A stretch of DNA of 64,000 nt, taken from NCBI GenBank assembly GCA_026398815.1, contig JAPLSA010000017.1:124001-188000 (forward strand), in the 5' to 3' direction. The notes under the pieces are model-generated. The model was not told where the DNA came from. It worked only from the letters and a program-made list of their open reading frames with translations, and made no database searches. Source of the stretch: Gammaproteobacteria bacterium. GTDB lineage: Bacteria; Pseudomonadota; Gammaproteobacteria; Nevskiales; Nevskiaceae. Made by a program: the position numbers and the translations under genes. Below, piece after piece: positions 7,718 to 62,227 of the stretch (the first letter of the stretch is position 1; each line of letters begins with the position of its first letter).

Positions 7718-8478
7718 GGGTGGCTCAGATCCTCGATGCGGATGTCGCCGCGCGCCAGCAGGCGCTCGCGGAACCAGCGGGTCGCGGCTTCGGCTTCGGC
7801 ACGCGGGCCCTTGATGCCGAACTCGATGTGTCGTTCACGCTCGGCGTTGCCGCGAAACGGCAGGCTGGCCAGCTTGATCGGCGGATAGGCGTTGAGCGTG
7901 GCTTCCATCAGGTCGATCAGGTCGCCCTCGCCGCCCGAGCCGTAGGCGCGGAACGTGAATTCCACCGGCGGCTCGGCGTTGTGCAGGCCGCCCAGCCGGA
8001 CATCGAGCACCCACTCCAGCATCGGCCAGGCCATTTCCGGAAAACCGGGCACGAAGTAGCAGTTACCGACATAGAAGCCGGCGATGTTGTTGACCGGGTT
8101 CGGGATCAGGCCGGCGCCGAGCGGGAAATCCGCCATCAGCACGCGATTCGGCCAGGCCTTGTCGCCGTACTGCTTTTCGATGATCGCCAGCGCTTCTGGA
8201 TGACGGGCGATCGGCACATCGAAGGCGCGGGCTGCCGCCTGCCGGGTGCGGTCGTCGGGCGTCCCGCCAATGCCGCCGCAGGACAGCAGCACATGGCCGC
8301 GATGCTGGGCGCTGCGGATCACCTCGGCGATCTGGCCTTCGTCGTCGCCGGCGAAATGGGCCCATTCGAGACTCATGCCGCGGACGTTGAGCAGCTCGAT
8401 GACTTTCGGAAGGTGCTTGTCCGGTCGCTTCCCGGACAGCAACTCGTCACCCACGATCATCAGACCTACCGATGACAT
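7714..8478 (-). CDS. MoCF/CinA-like molybdopterin-binding domain protein
   Basis: The 254-aa protein resembles the competence/damage-inducible CinA N-terminal (MoCF) domain: GLMIVGDELLSGKRPD at the start, LLSCGGIGGTPDDRTRQA, and NIAGFYVGN..YFVPGFPEMAW. It lacks the C-terminal nicotinamide-nucleotide amidase part of full CinA (about 400 aa). ATG 8478 has AAGGAGCGAGG just upstream, which decides the start. It forms a two-gene operon with the FrhB-like protein. Substrate unknown. Confidence 0.85.
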   Translation of the reverse strand: MSSVGLMIVGDELLSGKRPDKHLPKVIELLNVRGMSLEWAHFAGDDEGQIAEVIRSAQHRGHVLLSCGGIGGTPDDRTRQAAARAFDVPIARHPEALAIIEKQYGDKAWPNRVLMADFPLGAGLIPNPVNNIAGFYVGNCYFVPGFPEMAWPMLEWVLDVRLGGLHNAEPPVEFTFRAYGSGGEGDLIDLMEATLNAYPPIKLASLPFRGNAERERHIEFGIKGPRAEAEAATRWFRERLLARGDIRIEDLSHP

Positions 8479-29602: not shown

Positions 29603-31321
29603 GTGTCGATCCGCAAGCTCCTGCTCCTCGCGTTCATCGTCGTCGGCATGCTGCCGGCGGCGCTGGTGATGTGGCTGGCCGCCAGCCGCAGCGAAGCGGC
29701 GCTGCAGCAGCAGATCGAGGACGCCGCCGCGCGGGTCGCCGCCGCCACGGCCGGGGATCTCGACGACCTGCTGCGCGAGCGCGCCCAGAACGCCACCACC
29801 TGGACCCATGTCGAGGTCATGCAGGATCTGCGGCTCGGCGATCTCGACAAGCGCCTGTCCGGCTTCCTGGCCGAGATGTACCGCCGCTACGGCAGCGTCT
29901 ATGCCGGCCTGCATGCGGTCGACCGCGACGGCCGGGTGATCGCCAGCAGCGACCCGGCGGCGATCGGCACGCGGCGGCCGGCGATGCCGGCGTGGCTGGC
30001 GCTGCGCCTGCCGGGCGGCCCGGTGGCGGTGGCGCCGCCGGCTGCCGATCCGGCGCAACGGCGGCTGAGCCTGACCACGCCGATCGACTCGGCCTTCGGC
30101 GACGGCACCATCGGCACGCTGTGGCTCGACCTGCCGTGGTCGACCTTCGCCGAACAGCTCGACCCGCTGGCCGGCAACGGCCGCGAGATCGCGGTCAGCA
30201 CCGCCGATGGCCGACTGCTGGCGGTGTCCGCCGGCCTGCGCGCGCGCGGCCACGATTTCGGCCAGCCGATGCCGGCCGATTCGGCGGCGCTGGCCGAAGG
30301 TCCGGCGATCATCGCCCGTGCCGATGCCGGCTTCACTGGCTGGACCGTGTGGATCATCGAATCGCGCGCCGTGGCGCTGGCGCCGGTCCGGCAGATGCTG
30401 CGCCGCTTCGCGCTGCTGCTGGTGGCGACACTGCTGGTGATCCTGGTCGCCAGCATCGCGGTGTCGGCGCGCATCGCCCGGCCGGTGCAGGCGCTGACCC
30501 GCTACACGCGCAACTACCTGCGGCCCGGCAGCGGCGCACCGCCGCCGGAAGCCGGACCAGCCGAAGTTCGCGAACTCGGCCGCAGCTTCGGCGAACTGGT
30601 CGGCCAGCTGGAGGAATCCCAGGGTGCGCTGGTGCGCGCCTCGCGGCTGGCCGCGCTCGGCGAAGTCACCGCGCTGATGGCGCACGAGGTGCGCACGCCG
30701 GTCGGCATCCTGCGGTCCTCGGCACAGATGCTGGGCGACGAGCCGCAACTCGGCGCCGATGCCCGGGAACTGCTGGCGATCATCGTCAGCGAGACCGAGC
30801 GCCTGAACCGGCTGGTCGCCACCATGCTCGACCAGACCCGGATGCGCGCGCCGCTGCTGGCCGCCTGCGATTTCCACGCGATCGTCCGCCATGCGATCAG
30901 CCTGCTGGCGGCGCAGGCACGCGACCGCCGGGTGACGGTCGGCTTCGAGGCTGCGGCGCTGCGGCCGCAGATCGACGCCGACGCCGAGCAGCTGACCCAG
31001 GTGCTGCTGAACCTGGTCGGCAATGCGCTGCAGATCGTCCCGGCCGGCGGCCGGGTGCGGATCGGCACCGTTGACGAGCCCAGCCGGCTGGTCTGCACCA
31101 TCGACGACGATGGCCCCGGCATCGCGCCGGAAGATCGCCAGCGGCTGTTCGAGCCGTTCGTGCACAAGCGCGAGGGCGGCATCGGCCTGGGTCTGGCCGT
31201 GGTCCGCCAGATCGTCCGCGCCCATCACGGCGAGGTGGTGGCCGAAGCGGCGCCGCTCGGCGGTTGTGAGGGGGTGATTGATCCTAGACACAAGAAAGAA
31301 CCGGGAAAAAGCGAAAAATAA
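29603..31321 (+). CDS. Sensor histidine kinase, 3' end replaced by prophage insertion
   Basis: Host sequence from GTG 29603 to about 31264 encodes 554 residues. They comprise an N-terminal transmembrane helix, an extracytoplasmic sensor part, a second helix near residue 275, HAMP, a HisKA box with ALMAHEVRTP (His361), and HATPase boxes LNLVGNALQ, DDDGPGIAP, FEPF and GGIGLGLAVV. After GG at residue 554 the frame continues 18 codons into phage DNA. All catalytic boxes are kept; only the last strand(s) are lost, so activity may be reduced rather than absent. The lost 3' part should lie beyond the prophage's right end. Confidence 0.88.
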   Translation: MSIRKLLLLAFIVVGMLPAALVMWLAASRSEAALQQQIEDAAARVAAATAGDLDDLLRERAQNATTWTHVEVMQDLRLGDLDKRLSGFLAEMYRRYGSVYAGLHAVDRDGRVIASSDPAAIGTRRPAMPAWLALRLPGGPVAVAPPAADPAQRRLSLTTPIDSAFGDGTIGTLWLDLPWSTFAEQLDPLAGNGREIAVSTADGRLLAVSAGLRARGHDFGQPMPADSAALAEGPAIIARADAGFTGWTVWIIESRAVALAPVRQMLRRFALLLVATLLVILVASIAVSARIARPVQALTRYTRNYLRPGSGAPPPEAGPAEVRELGRSFGELVGQLEESQGALVRASRLAALGEVTALMAHEVRTPVGILRSSAQMLGDEPQLGADARELLAIIVSETERLNRLVATMLDQTRMRAPLLAACDFHAIVRHAISLLAAQARDRRVTVGFEAAALRPQIDADAEQLTQVLLNLVGNALQIVPAGGRVRIGTVDEPSRLVCTIDDDGPGIAPEDRQRLFEPFVHKREGGIGLGLAVVRQIVRAHHGEVVAEAAPLGGCEGVIDPRHKKEPGKSEK

Positions 31322-33080: not shown

Positions 33081-33512
33081 ATGCGTCGCGATCTGCACAC
33101 TGGCGACCTCTTCGAAGTGCCGCGTCCGGCGCAAGCGCTGGCCGGCAGCCACGACTTTCGACCCATCGTCGCCGAGCTGGTCGGCCAGGCGTTGCACGAT
33201 GCAGCCGGCGATAGACACGAGATCGCTGCGAACATGTCGCGGCTGGCAGGACGTGATGTCAGCAAGTACATGCTCGACGCCTATTCCAGCGGCGCGCGTG
33301 ACGAGTACAACTTGCCGATGTGGCTGGTCCCGGCGCTGGAGGCCAGCTGCGGGACCCACGCGCTGACCGCCTGGCTGGTCGACGTGCGCGGCGGTCGCAT
33401 GCTGATCGGCCGCGAGGCACTGAATGCCGAACTCGGCCGGCTGGAACGGATGCGCGAAGACGCGGCCCGGCGCATCCGCGAAGTCAAAAAGCAGATGGGC
33501 GTGTCGGAATGA
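33081..33512 (+). CDS. Conserved phage protein upstream of transposase A
   Basis: The 143-aa protein starts 2 bp after ner and overlaps the transposase start by 4 bp. It has a helical DNA-binding-like mid-part (EIAANMSRLAGRDVSKYMLDAYSSGARDEYNLP) and a C-terminal coiled coil (ELGRLERMREDAARRIREVKKQ). Proteins of this type precede A in transposable phages of Pseudomonas and relatives. Function is unknown. Confidence 0.75.
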   Translation: MRRDLHTGDLFEVPRPAQALAGSHDFRPIVAELVGQALHDAAGDRHEIAANMSRLAGRDVSKYMLDAYSSGARDEYNLPMWLVPALEASCGTHALTAWLVDVRGGRMLIGREALNAELGRLERMREDAARRIREVKKQMGVSE

Positions 33513-35584
33513 CTACCGCCGCGCCATCCCTGAAGTTCACCTTGGCGGACATCGCACTGTCGTGCGGGCTCACGAAGCCAGGGGTGTTCAAGCGATCCGT
33601 CCGCGAAGCCTGGTCATTCGACGAACAGCCGGTTCGCGGTGGCCGCCAGCGGTTGTACGCATTCAGCGACCTGCCCGCAGATCTTCAAGCCTCGCTGGCA
33701 ATTGCCGGCCGCATTCTGCCAACCGTCTCCTCCGCACCGGCCGGCACAGCCGGTGCCGCACCTTCGGCAGCTGATGCTGCCGCTTCTTCTTCGTCACCGG
33801 CAGCAAGAAATGCTGTCGCCTCCATCGAGAATTCGGAAAGCCTCTGGGCTCGATACGAACGCGCTGCCCCTGGCTGCAAAGCCAGGGCGGAAGCCGCCAC
33901 CCGTGCCGTTCAGGCGGTTGCCGCTCTGGTCGACCAAGGGCATCCGGTTCGCAAGGCCATCCGCGAAGTCGTCGCACGCGGTCTGGAAACCGAAGGCACG
34001 CTGCGCAAGCTCTGGTACGACGTGAGGCCGTATCCCAGGGCCGACTGGCTGGCCGTCTTGACTCCTGGCTGGCTCGGTCGCACGTCGGACAGCGTCAGTC
34101 CGGAGGCCTGGGACTTTTTCAAAGGGGACTACCTGCGTCTCGAAGGTCCAACGGCCAGCGCTGTTTACGACCGCCTGACCCGCGCTGCAAAAGAGCGCGG
34201 CTGGATCGTGCCGAGCCTCTCCAGCCTGCGTACCCGGTTGGACCGCGAAGTGCCACGCGCTGTGCAGGTGCTGGCGCGCCGGGGTACCGAGGCCTTCGCC
34301 CGGACCATGCCTGCCCAGCAGCGTGATCGCAGCGTCTTTCAGGCGATGGGCGGCGTGAACGCAGACGGGCATCGCTTCGACGTGTTCTGCAAATGGCAGG
34401 ACGGCACCGTGGCGCGGCCTGTCATGGTCGGCTGGCAGGACCTCTACAGCGGCAAGCTGCTCGCCAAGCGCGTGGACCGCACCGAACACAGCGGTCTGGT
34501 CCGCCTCAGCTTCGGCGACATGATCGAGCAGTACGGCATCCCCGGCGCGGTCTGGCTCGACAACGGCCGCAGTTTCGCCAGCAAGTTCATCACGGGCGGC
34601 ATGGCCAACCGCTATCGCTTCACCGTCCGCGAAGAAGACCCGGAAGGCCTGCTGACCAAACTGGTCGGACCCGAGAACGTCCACTGGACAACGCCGTATC
34701 ACGGCCAGGCCAAGCCGATCGAACGCGCCTGGCGCGATCTCTGTGAGCACGTCGCCAAGCATCCGGCCTTCGCCGGCGCCTACGTCGGCAACAACACGAT
34801 GGCCAAGCCAGAGAACTACGGCAGCCGCGCGGTGCCGATCGAAGAGTTCCTGGCCGTGCTAGACACCGAGATCGCCGCTCACAACGCGCGCCCTGGCCGT
34901 CGCTCGCACGTCTGTGCCGGCCGCAGCTTCGATGCTGCCTTTGCCGACAGCTACCAGGAAGCCGGCGTGCTGATCCGCATGCCCACGGCCGAGCAGCGGC
35001 GCTGGTGGATGCTGGCTGCCGAAAGCGTGTCCCTGGCCAGCAACACCGGCGAGGTCTCGCTGCTGGGCAACCGCTATTGGGACGAACGCCTCGTCGACCA
35101 CGCCGGCGACAAGGCCGTAGTCCGCTTCGACCCCGACAGCCTGCACAAGGGCGTGCACGTATACACGCTCGACGGCCGCTACATCTGCGCAGCGGACTGC
35201 TCTCATGCCGGCGGCTTCAACGATCTTGACGCCGCCCGCGATCTGGCCCGCGCGAAGAGCCAGCGCAAGAAGCACGCGAAGGGCGTGCTGGAAGCCGAGC
35301 GCCGCATGGATGCGGCCCAGGTGGCAGGCCTCATGCCGCGCAGCACGCCCGTCGTGCCCGCCACAGCCAAGAAAGTCGTGCGCATGGCCACCGGCCTGCC
35401 GCATGCGCCAGCCACCAACAGGCCGAACTTCGACCCCGCCGAGGCCACCTCGAAACCGGGCGCAAAGGTCGTTGCAGGCCGGTTTCAGAAGCCGAGTGCT
35501 CAATCCGCCGCCGAGATGGAGGCGGCCTTCGAAGAGGGCGTGGCCATGTTGCAGCGGAGGCAGGCCGGCAAGGCACGCCTGTGA
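33509..35584 (+). CDS. Mu-type DDE transposase A
   Basis: The 691-aa transposase has an N-terminal end-binding HTH region (FTLADIALSCGLTKPGVFKRSV) and a retroviral-integrase-fold core with DDE residues in HRFDVFCKWQD, VWLDNGRSFASK and GQAKPIERAWRDL. A Mu-type C-terminal beta-barrel and basic region follow. It catalyses integration and replicative transposition together with B. ATG 33509 overlaps the upstream stop. Confidence 0.97.
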   Translation: MTTAAPSLKFTLADIALSCGLTKPGVFKRSVREAWSFDEQPVRGGRQRLYAFSDLPADLQASLAIAGRILPTVSSAPAGTAGAAPSAADAAASSSSPAARNAVASIENSESLWARYERAAPGCKARAEAATRAVQAVAALVDQGHPVRKAIREVVARGLETEGTLRKLWYDVRPYPRADWLAVLTPGWLGRTSDSVSPEAWDFFKGDYLRLEGPTASAVYDRLTRAAKERGWIVPSLSSLRTRLDREVPRAVQVLARRGTEAFARTMPAQQRDRSVFQAMGGVNADGHRFDVFCKWQDGTVARPVMVGWQDLYSGKLLAKRVDRTEHSGLVRLSFGDMIEQYGIPGAVWLDNGRSFASKFITGGMANRYRFTVREEDPEGLLTKLVGPENVHWTTPYHGQAKPIERAWRDLCEHVAKHPAFAGAYVGNNTMAKPENYGSRAVPIEEFLAVLDTEIAAHNARPGRRSHVCAGRSFDAAFADSYQEAGVLIRMPTAEQRRWWMLAAESVSLASNTGEVSLLGNRYWDERLVDHAGDKAVVRFDPDSLHKGVHVYTLDGRYICAADCSHAGGFNDLDAARDLARAKSQRKKHAKGVLEAERRMDAAQVAGLMPRSTPVVPATAKKVVRMATGLPHAPATNRPNFDPAEATSKPGAKVVAGRFQKPSAQSAAEMEAAFEEGVAMLQRRQAGKARL

Positions 35585-42273: not shown

Positions 42274-42297
42274 GGCCCGCCACCCAGCGGGCCTTTT
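42274..42297 (+). terminator. Rho-independent terminator
   Basis: GGCCCGC/GCGGGCC stem with a 6-base loop followed by TTTT, 52 bp after the membrane-protein gene and before the lysis block. Confidence 0.85.
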
Positions 42298-42355
42298 GCT
42301 TTGCATCCGCATCTGCGAAACCCTTGGGTCCGGGCACGCGCGCGATCCTGCGCGC

Positions 42356-42961
42356 ATGACGCCATCCCAGCTCTCAGCCTTCTGCCCGGCGGCGCAGCCG
42401 TACTACCTTGCGCTGCGCGCGGCCATGACCGCCTTCGGCATCGAAACACCTGCACAGGTCGCCATGTTCCTCGGGCAGGTGGCCCATGAAAGCTGCGGCT
42501 TCACCCGCCTTGAAGAAGACCTGAATTACTCCGCCGAAGCGCTGCTGGCCACCTGGCCGAAGCGCTTCAACGAAGCCCAGGCACGGGCGTACGCCATGCA
42601 GCCGGAGCGGATCGCCAACCGCGCCTACGCCAACCGGCTCGGCAATGGCGATGAAGCCAGCGGCCACGGCTGGCGGTATCGGGGTCGCGGCCTGATCCAG
42701 CTTACCGGGCTGGACAACTATGGCTGGTGCAGCAAAGCGCTATCGCCCAAGCCTGGCTACCTGTTGAGGAACCCGGAAACATTGCTGCGTCCGCTCTTTG
42801 CGGCAGAGTCTGCTGCGTGGTTCTGGCGCGCCAAGAAGTGCAACGACCCCGCCGATGCCGGCAGTCTTGAAGAGGTGACCCGGCGCATCAACGGCGGCCT
42901 GACCGGTCTGGCTGATCGGCGAATCTGGTGGGAGAAGGCGCAACACGCCTTGCACGCCTGA
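42356..42961 (+). CDS. GH19 endolysin
   Basis: The 201-aa protein matches glycoside hydrolase family 19 (chitinase-like muramidases). It has FLGQVAHESCGFTRLEEDLNYSAEALLATWPKRF with catalytic Glu, NRLGNGDEASGHGWRYRGRGLIQLTGLDNY, and RRINGGLTGLADR. There is no signal peptide, so it needs the holin. ATG 42356 gives the usual family N-terminus. Confidence 0.92.
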   Translation: MTPSQLSAFCPAAQPYYLALRAAMTAFGIETPAQVAMFLGQVAHESCGFTRLEEDLNYSAEALLATWPKRFNEAQARAYAMQPERIANRAYANRLGNGDEASGHGWRYRGRGLIQLTGLDNYGWCSKALSPKPGYLLRNPETLLRPLFAAESAAWFWRAKKCNDPADAGSLEEVTRRINGGLTGLADRRIWWEKAQHALHA

Positions 42962-42962
42962 C

Positions 42963-43445
42963 ATGGCCAACCTGATCGCGAAAGTGCTGGGCGGTACTGC
43001 TGGCGAAGTGGTGGACAAGATCGCCGCCGCTGCGGATCGATTCATCACCACGGATGCCGAACGCAACCAGTACCGCCTGGATGCCGAGAAGCTGCTGCAG
43101 GCGCGTGACTCGGAAATCGAGCAGACCCTGCGCGCTGAACTCGGCGCCCAGGAACGCATCCTGGTGGCCGAGCTGCAGCAGGACGACACCTTCACCAAGC
43201 GCGCCCGGCCGGCCGTTGTGTATGTCGGCTTAGGCGTGATCGTCTTCAACTACTCGGTGGTGCCAGTGCTCGGCTGGGCGTTCAACACCACGCCGCCGCA
43301 GTTCAGCTTGCCGGAAGAGTTCTGGTACGCCTGGGGCGGCATCCTCGGCGTCTACAACCTCGGCCGCAGCTTCGAGAAGCGGGATCGCCGCATCAAGGCC
43401 CAGAGCACTGTGCAGCCGGTTCGCCTGATCGGGGAGCGGCCATGA
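42963..43445 (+). CDS. 3TM-type holin
   Basis: The 160-aa protein has an acidic amphipathic N-terminal half and a C-terminal hydrophobic segment with TRARPAVVYVGLGVIVFNYSVVP-like (RARPAVVYVGLGVIVF) and FWYAWGGILGVYNLGRSFEK. This is the pattern of the phage/GTA 3TM holin family. It follows the endolysin by 1 bp. Confidence 0.8.
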   Translation: MANLIAKVLGGTAGEVVDKIAAAADRFITTDAERNQYRLDAEKLLQARDSEIEQTLRAELGAQERILVAELQQDDTFTKRARPAVVYVGLGVIVFNYSVVPVLGWAFNTTPPQFSLPEEFWYAWGGILGVYNLGRSFEKRDRRIKAQSTVQPVRLIGERP

Positions 43446-43825
43446 GCATGGAATGGATCAAGCTCGGCTGGGAGATCGCCATCACGCTGATTTCGGGCGC
43501 AGCGTTCCTGGTCGCCTGGTTCGGCCGCCGTGACAAGGCCCACAAGAAGGCGGTCGAGGAAGTCTCTCAAGACTTGGCGAAAAAGACCCTGAACGAAGCG
43601 GCCCGCTACAGCGAGCTGCGGCATGAGATTGCCGACGTACAGGCCCGCATCAGCGTGGTGGAAGAAAACATCAAGCACCTGCCCACCGCCAACGATCTGC
43701 ATTCCCTGCAGAACGCCATCGGCCAGTTGGCGGCAGGCATCGGCAGGTTGGAAGGTGCCCAGCAGGGCGTGATCCGGCAAGTGGATCTGATGAACAGCTA
43801 CCTCATGCGGACGGAGAAGGTATGA
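43442..43825 (+). CDS. DUF2730/Mu gp25-like membrane protein
   Basis: The 127-aa product has an N-terminal transmembrane helix (WEIAITLISGAAFLVAWFG) and a long coiled coil (RHEIADVQARISVVEENI and on). In Mu-like phages it lies in the lysis region before the terminase. Overlaps the holin stop by 4 bp. Confidence 0.8.
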   Translation: MSMEWIKLGWEIAITLISGAAFLVAWFGRRDKAHKKAVEEVSQDLAKKTLNEAARYSELRHEIADVQARISVVEENIKHLPTANDLHSLQNAIGQLAAGIGRLEGAQQGVIRQVDLMNSYLMRTEKV

Positions 43826-44121
43826 GCTTTCGCGAACACCTGCAGGCCGATCTGCGCCTGGTGCTGCTGCGCGTGCTGGAGTGCGCGCCGGGCTACGAGT
43901 GCAACAGCAGCATCCTGCAGCGATCGGTCGAGGACTACGGGCACAACCCCAGCCGCGACCAGGTGCACACCGAACTGAGCTGGCTTGCCGAGCAAGGCCT
44001 GGTCACGCTCGAAAAGCCGGTGGCCACCGTCGTCGTCGCCACCTTGACCGGCCGGGGCCAGGACGTGGCGAAAGGCCGCAGCAACGTGCCCGGCGTCAAG
44101 CGGCCGGGGCCGAGCGCATGA
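43822..44121 (+). CDS. Mu gp26-like winged-helix protein
   Basis: The 99-aa product has a wHTH: LVLLRVLECAPGYECNSSILQRSVEDYGHNPSRDQVHTELSWLAEQGLVTLE. It resembles the small ArsR-like phage proteins next to gp25. Function unknown. Confidence 0.8.
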   Translation: MSFREHLQADLRLVLLRVLECAPGYECNSSILQRSVEDYGHNPSRDQVHTELSWLAEQGLVTLEKPVATVVVATLTGRGQDVAKGRSNVPGVKRPGPSA

Positions 44122-44240
44122 ACATCCGCCCCGGCCAGATCCTGGCGTTCCCGCTTTTGATGCTGCTGATCGTGTTGCTGCTGCCAGTGGTGGTGCTCGT
44201 GCACGCGATCGAGTGGCTTGCCCCTGAGTGGATGTCGTGA
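44118..44240 (+). CDS. Tiny single-pass membrane protein
   Basis: The 40-aa product is mostly one transmembrane helix (ILAFPLLMLLIVLLLPVVVLV). ATG 44118 overlaps the previous stop as ATGA, supporting translation. It may be a second holin/pinholin or spanin-related peptide. Confidence 0.6.
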   Translation: MNIRPGQILAFPLLMLLIVLLLPVVVLVHAIEWLAPEWMS

Positions 44241-44260
44241 CCAGCAAGGAGAACGTGTCG

Positions 44261-44488
44261 ATGGAAACCATTACCCAACCGAAGATCACTGGCTATCGGC
44301 AACTTAACGAGGCCGAAGCCGCCCTGATGAATGAGATCAAGGCTCGCGGCGTAGAGCTCGGTGAACTGGTCAACAAGCTGCGCACTACTGCTGGCCTCGA
44401 TCAGCGCTGGATCAGCATCGGCTCAACCGACCTGCAGACCGGCCTGATGGCGCTGGTCCGTGGCGTAGCCCAGCCAACCACCTTCTGA
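44261..44488 (+). CDS. acb2: Acb2-like anti-CBASS cyclic-nucleotide sponge
   Basis: The 75-aa product from ATG 44261 (CAAGGAG ahead) has ITGYRQLNEAEAALMNEIKARGVELG and LDQRWISIGSTDLQTGLMAL, ending VAQPTTF. This is the Acb2/Tad1 hairpin family pattern known from Pseudomonas phages of the transposable type. Acb2 binds cGAMP and related second messengers and so blocks CBASS effectors. As I recall, Tyr11 and Lys26 of PaMx33 Acb2 are essential; they align with Tyr12 and Lys27 here. It lies between the lysis genes and the terminase. Confidence 0.85.
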   Translation: METITQPKITGYRQLNEAEAALMNEIKARGVELGELVNKLRTTAGLDQRWISIGSTDLQTGLMALVRGVAQPTTF

Positions 44489-44489
44489 C

Positions 44490-44690
44490 ATGCACCGCAT
44501 CCTGACAATGCTCGGCCTGCTGCTGATCGCCTGGGGCCTATCCAGCGGCTACACCCGGTATCGCATCGCCCAGACCTGTCTCGATGCCGGTCTGTTCGCT
44601 GTCGACGAGCGGGCCTTCGTCTGCGTTCCGGTCCGCGTGGATTCGCCTGAGCCTGCTGCCCCACGACCTTCGAAAGAACGCGCGACGTGA
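44490..44690 (+). CDS. Small membrane protein
   Basis: The 66-aa product has an N-terminal hydrophobic segment (LTMLGLLLIAWGLSSG), two later cysteines and a proline-rich tail. It lies between acb2 and the terminase small subunit, overlapping the latter by 4 bp. Function unknown. Confidence 0.6.
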   Translation: MHRILTMLGLLLIAWGLSSGYTRYRIAQTCLDAGLFAVDERAFVCVPVRVDSPEPAAPRPSKERAT

Positions 44691-45247
44691 GCCGCAAGAG
44701 CAGCATCTCCACGCTCGACCCGGCGATCCGCACCGAGCTGGACCGGCTGCTCAAGGATGACCGGTTCACGTTGGAACAGATCGCCGCGCACCTGCGCCAG
44801 CTGGGCGCCCAGGTGTCGCGCAGCGCCCTCGGCCGGTATCACAAGCGATTCGAGGAATCCGGCAAGAAGATCCGCGAAGCACGTGAGGTTGCCGCCGTGT
44901 GGGCGGAGCGGCTGGGTAACGAGCCGCAGGGCGACATCGGTAAGGTCGTCATGGAGCTGCTGCGCACGCTGGCCTTCGACGCCACCATGCAGCTCGGCGA
45001 AGAAGGCAACGCCGAAGTGCAGATCAGCGGCAAAGAGATCGGCGCGCTCGCGCTGGCCATGCAACGCCTGGAAGCCGCCAGCTCCCTGAGCCTCAAGCGC
45101 GAGCAAGCATTGCGACAGGCCGCTGCCGAAGAGGCCGCCAGCCTGGTCGACGCCGTTGCTGCCGAAAAACCGGCCGGCCTGACGCCGGAGGCGGCCGAGG
45201 AAATCAAGCGCCGCATCCTCGGCATCAAGTCTGGCGGCGGGTCCTGA
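44687..45247 (+). CDS. Terminase small subunit (DUF3486, Mu gp27-like)
   Basis: The 186-aa product (GTG 44687) begins SSISTLDPAIRTELDRLLKDDRFTLEQIAAHL with an HTH and SALGRYHKRFEESG, the DUF3486 signature. It recognises the packaging site for head filling. Confidence 0.9.
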   Translation: MSRKSSISTLDPAIRTELDRLLKDDRFTLEQIAAHLRQLGAQVSRSALGRYHKRFEESGKKIREAREVAAVWAERLGNEPQGDIGKVVMELLRTLAFDATMQLGEEGNAEVQISGKEIGALALAMQRLEAASSLSLKREQALRQAAAEEAASLVDAVAAEKPAGLTPEAAEEIKRRILGIKSGGGS

Positions 45248-60199: not shown

Positions 60200-60537
60200 G
60201 CGAGCCCGTGATCCTGTCGAGCGTGAAGTGCGCCGACACCTTCGGCCCGATCGTGGTCTCGCTTGATCGCGTGCCGGCAGCCGGCGCGGAAGTGCTGGCA
60301 CAGATGAGGGACGCCGTCGACGCGCTGATCTACAGCTGGTCTACCAGCGCCGGCACGGTGGTCATCAGCGGTGCCGACATCGAGCTCGCCGCCGTGCCGC
60401 CAGAAGTCACGCGGCTGTGGCCACCCGGCATCCACGGCTTCGAGCTGCAGCTGCGCTCCGGCGGGCGCACCACCACCCAGATTTTTCGCGAAGAGCTCGC
60501 GATCACCGTGCTTGGAGACGGCGCGTATGTCAGCTAG
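60196..60537 (+). CDS. Unknown protein at start of the fibre cassette
   Basis: The 113-aa product (GTG 60196) has strands (GTVVISGADIELAAVPPEV, GFELQLRSGGRTTTQIFREELAITV) resembling an Ig/BppU-like fibre-attachment domain. It overlaps gp44 by 4 bp and the fibre gene by 11 bp. Confidence 0.65.
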   Translation: MSEPVILSSVKCADTFGPIVVSLDRVPAAGAEVLAQMRDAVDALIYSWSTSAGTVVISGADIELAAVPPEVTRLWPPGIHGFELQLRSGGRTTTQIFREELAITVLGDGAYVS

Positions 60538-62227
60538 CAAAACCATCATCATCCGCGAAGGCGAAGCCGGCCAGAGCGCGTATGAGCTCGCCCTGGCCAA
60601 GGGCTTCGTCGGCACCGAAGAGCAATGGCTGGCCAGCCTGCAGGGCGGCCTCAACGGCTGGTCGCCCGTTCCGGCGTTGATCGCGGACGGCAATCGATCC
60701 GTCTGCAAGATCATCGACTGGACAGGCGGCAACGGTGCCAAACCTGCGTCCGGCTACTACGTCGGCCCGCAAGGCCCGACGCAGGACATCGCCGAAGCCC
60801 TGGATCTGCGTGGCGCGTCGGGTATGCAGGGGCCTGCTGGGGCTGCCGGTTCACCAGGTGCTGCAGGCGCGGCCGGTACCGCTGGCCCGGCCGGCCCGGC
60901 TGGGGCAGCCGGCCCGCAGGGGCCGAAAGGCGACATCGGCGACACCGGGCCAGCCGGCCCTGCCGGTGCAGCCGGTCCCGCCGGCCCGCAGGGCGCGAAG
61001 GGTGACACCGGCGACACCGGGCCTGCCGGCCCCGCCGGTGCAGCCGGTCCCGCTGGCCCGCAGGGCGCAAAGGGTGACACCGGCGACACCGGGCCTGCCG
61101 GCCCTGCCGGTGCGACCGGTCCCGCCGGCCCGCAGGGCGCAAAGGGGGATACCGGAGCCACCGGGCCTGCCGGCGCCACCGGTCCCGCTGGCCCGCAAGG
61201 GGCGAAGGGCGATACCGGAGCCGCCGGGCCTGCCGGCGCTGCCGGTGCGACCGGTCCCACTGGCCCGCAGGGTGCGAAGGGTGACACCGGCAATACCGGC
61301 GCTGCTGGCCCTGCCGGTCCGGCCGGCGCTACCGGTGCCACCGGTCCCGCTGGCCCGCAGGGTGCGAAGGGCGATACCGGCAACACGGGTGCCGCTGGCC
61401 CGGCCGGCCCGGCTGGCCCGGCTGGCCCCGCAGGCGAAGGCGTTCCCTCCGGTGGCACGGCCGGGCAGGTGCTGGCGGTAACAAGCGGTGGCGCCCGTAC
61501 TTGGGCCACACCAACGCGCGCCACCGTAGGCCTGAATTCGACCGACGATCTCCCGGAAAAGACGACCGACCCGGTGAACCGCTGGTTCACCGACGAACGC
61601 GCACGCGCAGCGTTGGAGTCCAGCAACGCCGCGATGGCCACGGTACTGCTCGCTGACCTGCCTCCGGCTGCACTCGAAAACGCGGATCGCGTGGCCTCTG
61701 TGCGCCGCGATATCAGCATCAAGCGGCGCTTCGTGCTGATCAGCGACGGTAGCGCGTGGCAGTACGTCAACAACATCGCGGTGATCGACGCCGCTGAGGC
61801 GGAGAGCGCTGATCTGACGCTGGCTGCAGCCGCCGCAACGTTCTCGACCGGCACGATCGTCATCCCCGGCAAGCTGATCCTGCCGCGTCATGAGTACGCG
61901 CTCGATCTCGACGTGCTGTTCCAGAGCGCATCGGCATCGAACGCGGTGAGTGTCACGGCGAACGGCACCGCTGTCTTCGAGCCGCCTGGCACCAGCAGCA
62001 CGCGGCGCTACGGCGGCGTCTGCAGGCTGTGGATGAACGCGGCGGGCAACGGATTCCGTACCGGCGGACATCTGGCCGGGTTCGGCTGGGGGACAAACAG
62101 CGGCGGCGGGTACTTGTCCGAAACGGCGTATACGCCTGGTAGCGATCTCACGCTGCAGATCCGCGCCCTCGGCGTGGTCGGCGAGATCGCGCGGCTCTGG
62201 CGCTGGAAGCTGGTGGCCACCCGGTGA
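60527..62227 (+). CDS. Collagen-like tail fibre protein
   Basis: The 566-aa product has an N-terminal attachment region (AYELALAKGFVGTEEQWLASLQG), 70 Gly-X-Y triplets at residues about 96-305 with seven GPQG(A/P)KGD motifs, then a globular C-terminal domain with TFSTGTIVIPGKLIL and a final RLWRWKLVATR. It is a trimeric fibre or spike, probably carrying host recognition. Confidence 0.88.
   Translation: MSASKTIIIREGEAGQSAYELALAKGFVGTEEQWLASLQGGLNGWSPVPALIADGNRSVCKIIDWTGGNGAKPASGYYVGPQGPTQDIAEALDLRGASGMQGPAGAAGSPGAAGAAGTAGPAGPAGAAGPQGPKGDIGDTGPAGPAGAAGPAGPQGAKGDTGDTGPAGPAGAAGPAGPQGAKGDTGDTGPAGPAGATGPAGPQGAKGDTGATGPAGATGPAGPQGAKGDTGAAGPAGAAGATGPTGPQGAKGDTGNTGAAGPAGPAGATGATGPAGPQGAKGDTGNTGAAGPAGPAGPAGPAGEGVPSGGTAGQVLAVTSGGARTWATPTRATVGLNSTDDLPEKTTDPVNRWFTDERARAALESSNAAMATVLLADLPPAALENADRVASVRRDISIKRRFVLISDGSAWQYVNNIAVIDAAEAESADLTLAAAAATFSTGTIVIPGKLILPRHEYALDLDVLFQSASASNAVSVTANGTAVFEPPGTSSTRRYGGVCRLWMNAAGNGFRTGGHLAGFGWGTNSGGGYLSETAYTPGSDLTLQIRALGVVGEIARLWRWKLVATR
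60812..61441 (+). repeat. Tandem 72-bp-type coding repeats (collagen triplets)
   Basis: The DNA encoding the Gly-X-Y region is a tandem array of nearly identical units around GPQGAKGDTG(D/A/N)TG, usually 72 nt (8 triplets) apart. It is a slippage hot spot that can vary fibre length. Confidence 0.9.

Follow-up and report, generated by a model that had tools for sequence, protein, structure and literature searches.

The locus analysed here raises the question of whether a small gene in a Mu-like prophage encodes a sponge for the cyclic-oligonucleotide signals of CBASS, and if so, how the gene came to lie where it does. In known Acb2 proteins, six hairpin protomers form a hexamer in which the head-to-head interfaces bind cyclic dinucleotides, with a set of Tyr, Lys, and Arg residues among the dinucleotide contacts, and the ends of the trimer-interface channels can bind cyclic trinucleotides. 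The gene studied, acb2, encodes a 75-residue Acb2-type protein, a putative sponge of this kind, and lies in a stretch of 64,000 nucleotides from a Nevskiaceae genome, which is hereafter called the window.

Reading frame, family, and pocket residues of the 75-residue protein

The ORF reading of the window gave a frame of 75 codons on the forward strand, running from ATG to TGA at exactly 44261-44488. A Shine-Dalgarno-like AAGGAGA (44246-44252, forward strand, recognized by eye) was located 8 nt before the ATG, and the alignment indicated that the nearest relatives begin at the same residue. A longer frame starting from a GTG at 44228 (86 residues) was rejected, since the close relatives share the ATG start and the ribosome-binding site precedes the ATG. 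When acb2 was compared with eight relatives (73-80% nucleotide identity), dN was 0.08-0.16, whereas dS was 0.77-1.33 in seven of the relatives and saturated in the eighth, indicating that the protein is under purifying selection. Thus, the acb2 frame is a real gene under purifying selection. Its GC content was 59%, and the values for the part of the prophage within the window and for the host DNA to its left were 66% and 69%, respectively.

A single Pfam-A family, PF24729 (Acb2/Tad1 hairpin), was matched by the protein, with an E-value of 4.1e-17 and 62.6 bits (cut-off 27). The match exceeded the curated cut-off and ran from residue 11 to residue 71, with all 58 positions of the profile included. 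The PHROGs search gave phrog_717 at 5.3e-17 and phrog_29522 at 2.6e-6; homologues of T4 Vs.4 have been placed in PHROG 717 (PMC10097602). Using phmmer against the PDB, two distinct sequences, 8h2j and 8ixz, were found, both of which are named p26 (6.1e-12), and 8H2J is Acb2 of Pseudomonas phage PaP2 according to PMC11722364. A profile of 45 relatives again ranked the two p26 sequences first and second in the PDB (2e-26), followed by T4 Vs.4 (7uq2) at 6.5e-5, and the other seven matches had E-values of at least 0.059. PF24729 was matched by all 45 members of the alignment behind this profile (alignment A3), the sequences of which had been picked from the fetched loci, and the NCBIfam and PADLOC searches with the 75-residue protein gave no match. 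The length of the protein, judged by sequence only, suits the short Acb2 plan of one short and two long helices.

Because PF24729 covers both the Acb2 and the Tad1 names, the latter identity was also considered. Tad1 carries an N-terminal beta-sheet ahead of the two long helices (PMC12043709). The hairpin match in the present protein starts at residue 11 of 75, leaving no space for such a domain, and Tad1 was therefore rejected. The sequence-only reading had described an Acb2-type protein with the Acb2/Tad1 hairpin and had set an HMM search for Acb2/Tad1 similarity as the test beforehand; the profile matches to PF24729, phrog_717, and p26, together with the residue mapping given below, agree with that description. 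Hence, the protein very probably belongs to the Acb2 family. It is an already described kind of phage gene, of which the window supplies a sound new example.

For residue mapping, we used an alignment of 18 sequences (alignment A1), which also served for a viral scan from which the best 80 of 586 matches were taken. Tyr12, Lys27, and Arg67 aligned with Y8, K23, and R79 of T4 Vs.4 and with Y11, K26, and R85 of PaMx33 Acb2, and were invariant in all sequences of both alignments (18/18 in A1 and 45/45 in A3). The earlier assignment of Tyr12 and Lys27 to the positions of reported essential residues of PaMx33 Acb2 was thus correct. T4 Vs.4 is described as a hexamer with three cGAMP molecules, which are stacked by Y8 and F82 and held by polar contacts of Y8, H11, K23, and R79 (PMC10097602). 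Two of these contacts, H11 and F82, are replaced by Leu15 and Ala70 in the window protein. Leu and Ala occupy these positions in 17 of the 18 aligned sequences, including PaMx33 Acb2, and His and Phe occur in T4 only. The window protein is therefore of the PaMx33 kind, and the H11 and F82 contacts, as judged from the alignment, are T4-specific and not family-defining. The hexamer-interface residues L29, F33, A66, A73, and A77 of T4 Vs.4 corresponded to L33, V37, G54, G61, and L65, respectively.

PaP2 p26 and PaMx33 Acb2 (orf24) belong to the same Pfam family as the window protein, and the PaMx33 protein is 36-39% identical to it and has the C-terminal QP..F motif in common with it. However, PaMx33 Acb2 has 93 residues instead of 75, the difference falling where the two conserved hairpin halves are joined; the window protein is short because the link that joins K27 to T56 has 28 residues. 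T4 Vs.4 is also short, but its identity to the window protein is 27%.

An accessory cassette in a Mu-like prophage

The prophage carrying acb2 is 39.1 kb long. Its left end is at 31265 (TGTGAGG...) and its right end (...CCCTACA) lies beyond the window, at window-equivalent position 70378, so that the part from 31265 to 64000 is inside the window, on the forward strand. The TG...CA ends are flanked by a 5-bp duplication, GCGGT, at 31260-31264 and at window-equivalent 70379-70383 (8379-8383 of the fetched stretch L136). The insertion hit a histidine-kinase gene (HisKA and HATPase_c domains) at its 3' end, cutting the last codons. Just past the right prophage end, a response-regulator-like frame was seen by eye. 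A Mu-type transposase A frame at 33320-35584 (forward strand), the 5' end of which may be over-extended, matched 165 of 50,697 phage records, including those of Mu and D108. The transposase, the TG...CA ends, the duplication, and the small terminase of gp27 type described below support the Mu-like prophage that had been proposed from the window. Far downstream, at 60371-62227, an ORF that looks fibre-like by eye contains an extended collagen-like run of Gly-X-Y.

The genes around acb2 lie on the forward strand. The lysis genes (42296-43445, identified by Pfam and PHROGs) consist of a GH19-type endolysin gene (42296-42961) and a gene for a holin with three transmembrane segments (42963-43445). 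They are followed by a DUF2730 gene, a conserved phage gene of the VpaChn25_0724 family (43822-44121, phrog_436), a 40-residue ORF (TM40, 44118-44240), acb2, a 66-residue ORF (TM66, 44490-44690), and the gene for the terminase small subunit of Mu gp27 type (44687-45247; PF11985 at 2.2e-47 and phrog_426). The large terminase and portal genes come next after gp27; these names were assigned from their position and from matches in Mu-like prophages related to this one. TM40, found by ORF reading, is hydrophobic; it matched no Pfam family at E-values up to 0.1, and its PHROG match was at 0.097 only. TM66 begins one base after acb2, has an N-terminus that appears hydrophobic by eye, and matched phrog_4568 (function unknown) at 4.2e-5.

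Of the 58 host-family genomes, 10 encoded Gp27, including the host genome itself, and the nine other Gp27 stretches were fetched for comparison of the slot. Two of these (L159 and L160) had no phrog_436 match and were not counted. In all seven countable prophages, the nearest of which was 87-89% identical to the window prophage in Gp27, the phrog_436 gene and gp27 abut at a distance of 0-23 nt, whereas in the window 565 bp (44122-44686), the insert with TM40, acb2, and TM66, lie between them. In addition, TM40, Acb2, and TM66 had no tblastn match (E-values up to 0.01) in the nine related prophage stretches, which is a weak test for products of 40 and 66 residues. Since the insert is missing from the slot in 7/7 relatives, acb2 is part of an accessory (moron) cassette that separates the phrog_436 gene from the gene for the small terminase.

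Distribution and gene contexts of compact Acb2-type genes

A tblastn search (E-values up to 0.01) found acb2 in at least 221 of the 50,697 phage records. The search of named bacterial genomes gave 13 loci, with the top match (89%) in Aromatoleum anaerobium; the other prophage queries gave no match in that stretch. The proteins of Acinetobacter phage Ab9, Microcystis phage Mwe-JY05, and Xanthomonas virus PB119 were 63-74% identical over 65-68 residues and had the same short link, although their genes stand in other contexts and are annotated just as encoding hypothetical proteins. A core pattern was matched by 106 of 121 loci, and 76 of the 106 (60 of 88 distinct cores) shared the link length of the window protein, in a set that leans to short forms because the query itself is short. 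One locus (L020, 6001-6345) encodes a 115-residue Acb2 whose N-terminus is nearly the same as that of the window protein and whose loop is much longer, which suggests a loop insertion or recombination inside the hairpin.

PF24729 was matched in 4 of the 58 host-family genomes. The matches outside the host lie in the stretches L141 (genome G013, contig C15), L139 (G039), and L140 (G032), and apart from Acb2, none of the Mu-like queries had a match in these 13-kb stretches.

The sequence-only reading had also placed such genes between the lysis genes and terminase in transposable Pseudomonas phages. That position was confirmed for the window prophage, but not for the transposable Pseudomonas phages examined. 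These were two B3-like phages, PM105 (described as a B3-like transposable phage in PMC4777764) and AV002 (classed as B3-like by gene order). In both, a single hypothetical gene separates the major capsid gene from acb2, and the head-tail adaptor gene comes after acb2. In Pseudomonas phage 5400, acb2 directly follows the endolysin gene; since this phage had no Mu transposase match (best E-value 0.6), it was no longer counted as a transposable Pseudomonas phage in which acb2 comes after lysis genes. In PB119, the gene precedes the small terminase gene, and in PaMx33 the same-strand genes upstream of acb2 include those for a primase and DNA polymerase I. L113, a metagenome-derived viral contig that has Mu-like genes, encodes an Acb2 with 65% identity. 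The acb2 gene is located there between a DUF1804 gene (phrog_756) and a gene for an 87-residue phrog_902 protein, after which comes the gene for the large terminase (phrog_38). A small terminase had been considered as the product of the gene preceding acb2 in this contig, and this was dropped in favour of DUF1804, a DNA-binding protein. The gene order thus indicates that a similar place is used in a distant relative.

Clustering of the ORFs that neighbour acb2-type genes (864 of them, taken from 122 of 128 stretches, with the window itself and some contigs twice among these) gave no shared partner: no family occurred in more than seven stretches. None of the families printed (those in at least four stretches) included the neighbours of acb2 in the window.

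CBASS in the host family and the proposed function

The host genome (4.3 Mb, 95.6% complete) contained one PF24729 match, which is acb2 itself. Profile searches of this genome gave no SMODS, AGS_C, DncV-like, SAVED, mCpol, or Cas10 palm-domain match, with CD-NTase profiles that are not exhaustive, and a search with PDLC00788 gave no match in the host, nor in the controls. Consequently, no present target is shown in the host. Among the 58 family genomes, SMODS was matched in four (one over the cut-off), DncV-like in five, SAVED in four, and AGS_C in none; a CD-NTase profile match was thereby obtained in six, with one of them (G019) below the cut-off only. Two genomes of the same genus carry CBASS operons recognized by PADLOC: one in G013, with an HNH-SAVED effector, a cyclase, and an E2 protein, and one in G020, with a phospholipase-cyclase pair beside a cyclase-E1/E2 pair. 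The 294-residue cyclase of G020 was missed by the SMODS and DncV-like profiles and recognized by PADLOC, indicating that the profiles are not exhaustive. The prediction that the host lineage or its relatives carry CBASS therefore held for the relatives, with six of 58 genomes and two same-genus operons, and did not hold for the host genome with the models tried. In G020, the two CBASS modules are adjacent and divergent, on opposite strands (L138, 2387-7917). G013 has a hairpin-family gene in addition to its CBASS operon. Acb2 is also reported to be able to trigger Panoptes (PMC12657218). Since mCpol, the Panoptes marker searched for, was found in none of the 58 family genomes, such a cost of Acb2 is not evident here.

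Other readings were weighed beside a sponge that mainly removes the CBASS dinucleotide signal. The strongest of them, although still unlikely, is that the protein has the Acb2 fold but has as its main ligand a cyclic trinucleotide such as cA3, from CBASS or type III CRISPR, or some other signalling nucleotide. Arg49 aligned with Arg67 of PaMx33 Acb2, a position that we take to be part of the trinucleotide site, and was invariant in 45 of the 45 A3 sequences. According to a review, known Acb2 also has a distinct site for cyclic trinucleotides, which it binds more tightly than dinucleotides (PMC12043709). On the other hand, the dinucleotide pocket of Y12, K27, and R67 is just as invariant, and the Cas10 palm domain had no match in the host. 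A decayed or silent remnant, to which the missing CBASS gene match in the host genome would point, is very improbable: the dN and dS values against the eight relatives indicate constraint, the start, ribosome-binding site, pocket residues, and operon context are intact, and both prophage ends are present. We give equally little credence to the idea that the whole 565-bp insert is a three-gene unit in which Acb2 acts with TM40 and TM66, two small membrane peptides that would, up to the time of lysis, shield or modulate the membrane against CBASS effectors that attack it.

It is even harder to credit that the product is a virion or head-assembly accessory protein instead of an anti-defence protein. 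Such a role would fit five of the nine annotated phages (Ab9, PB119, PM105, AV002, and Mwe-JY05), in which terminase, portal, protease, or capsid genes are found next to acb2 or with one gene in between. However, no such placement was seen in phage 5400, PaMx33, Vibrio phage 1.204.O, or T4, the slot is empty in all seven related prophages, the neighbours over the 122 clustered stretches are diverse, and the known relatives are signal sponges.

Taken together, it is highly likely that the gene encodes a compact Acb2, a predicted hexameric sponge of the CBASS signal, carried by a moron cassette in the Mu-like prophage. The protein most likely sequesters cyclic oligonucleotides and blunts CBASS during the lytic cycle. 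By analogy with the known members of the family, it would assemble as a hexamer and sequester cyclic dinucleotides, perhaps also trinucleotides (PMC10097602, PMC12043709). Once the prophage is induced or the phage infects a cell, the protein would presumably be expressed as part of the late operon, and removal of the signal would keep effectors such as the CapV phospholipase and SAVED nucleases off before lysis.

The present locus leaves the knowledge of CBASS evasion unchanged. It provides a clean instance of a Mu-like prophage that carries acb2 as an accessory gene and whose relatives show the slot unfilled. The compact class to which it belongs is common among the fetched loci, a set biased by the query, and the longer p26 of PaP2 is its closest solved structure. 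A modest point can now be tested, namely whether short-loop Acb2 proteins retain both kinds of binding site.
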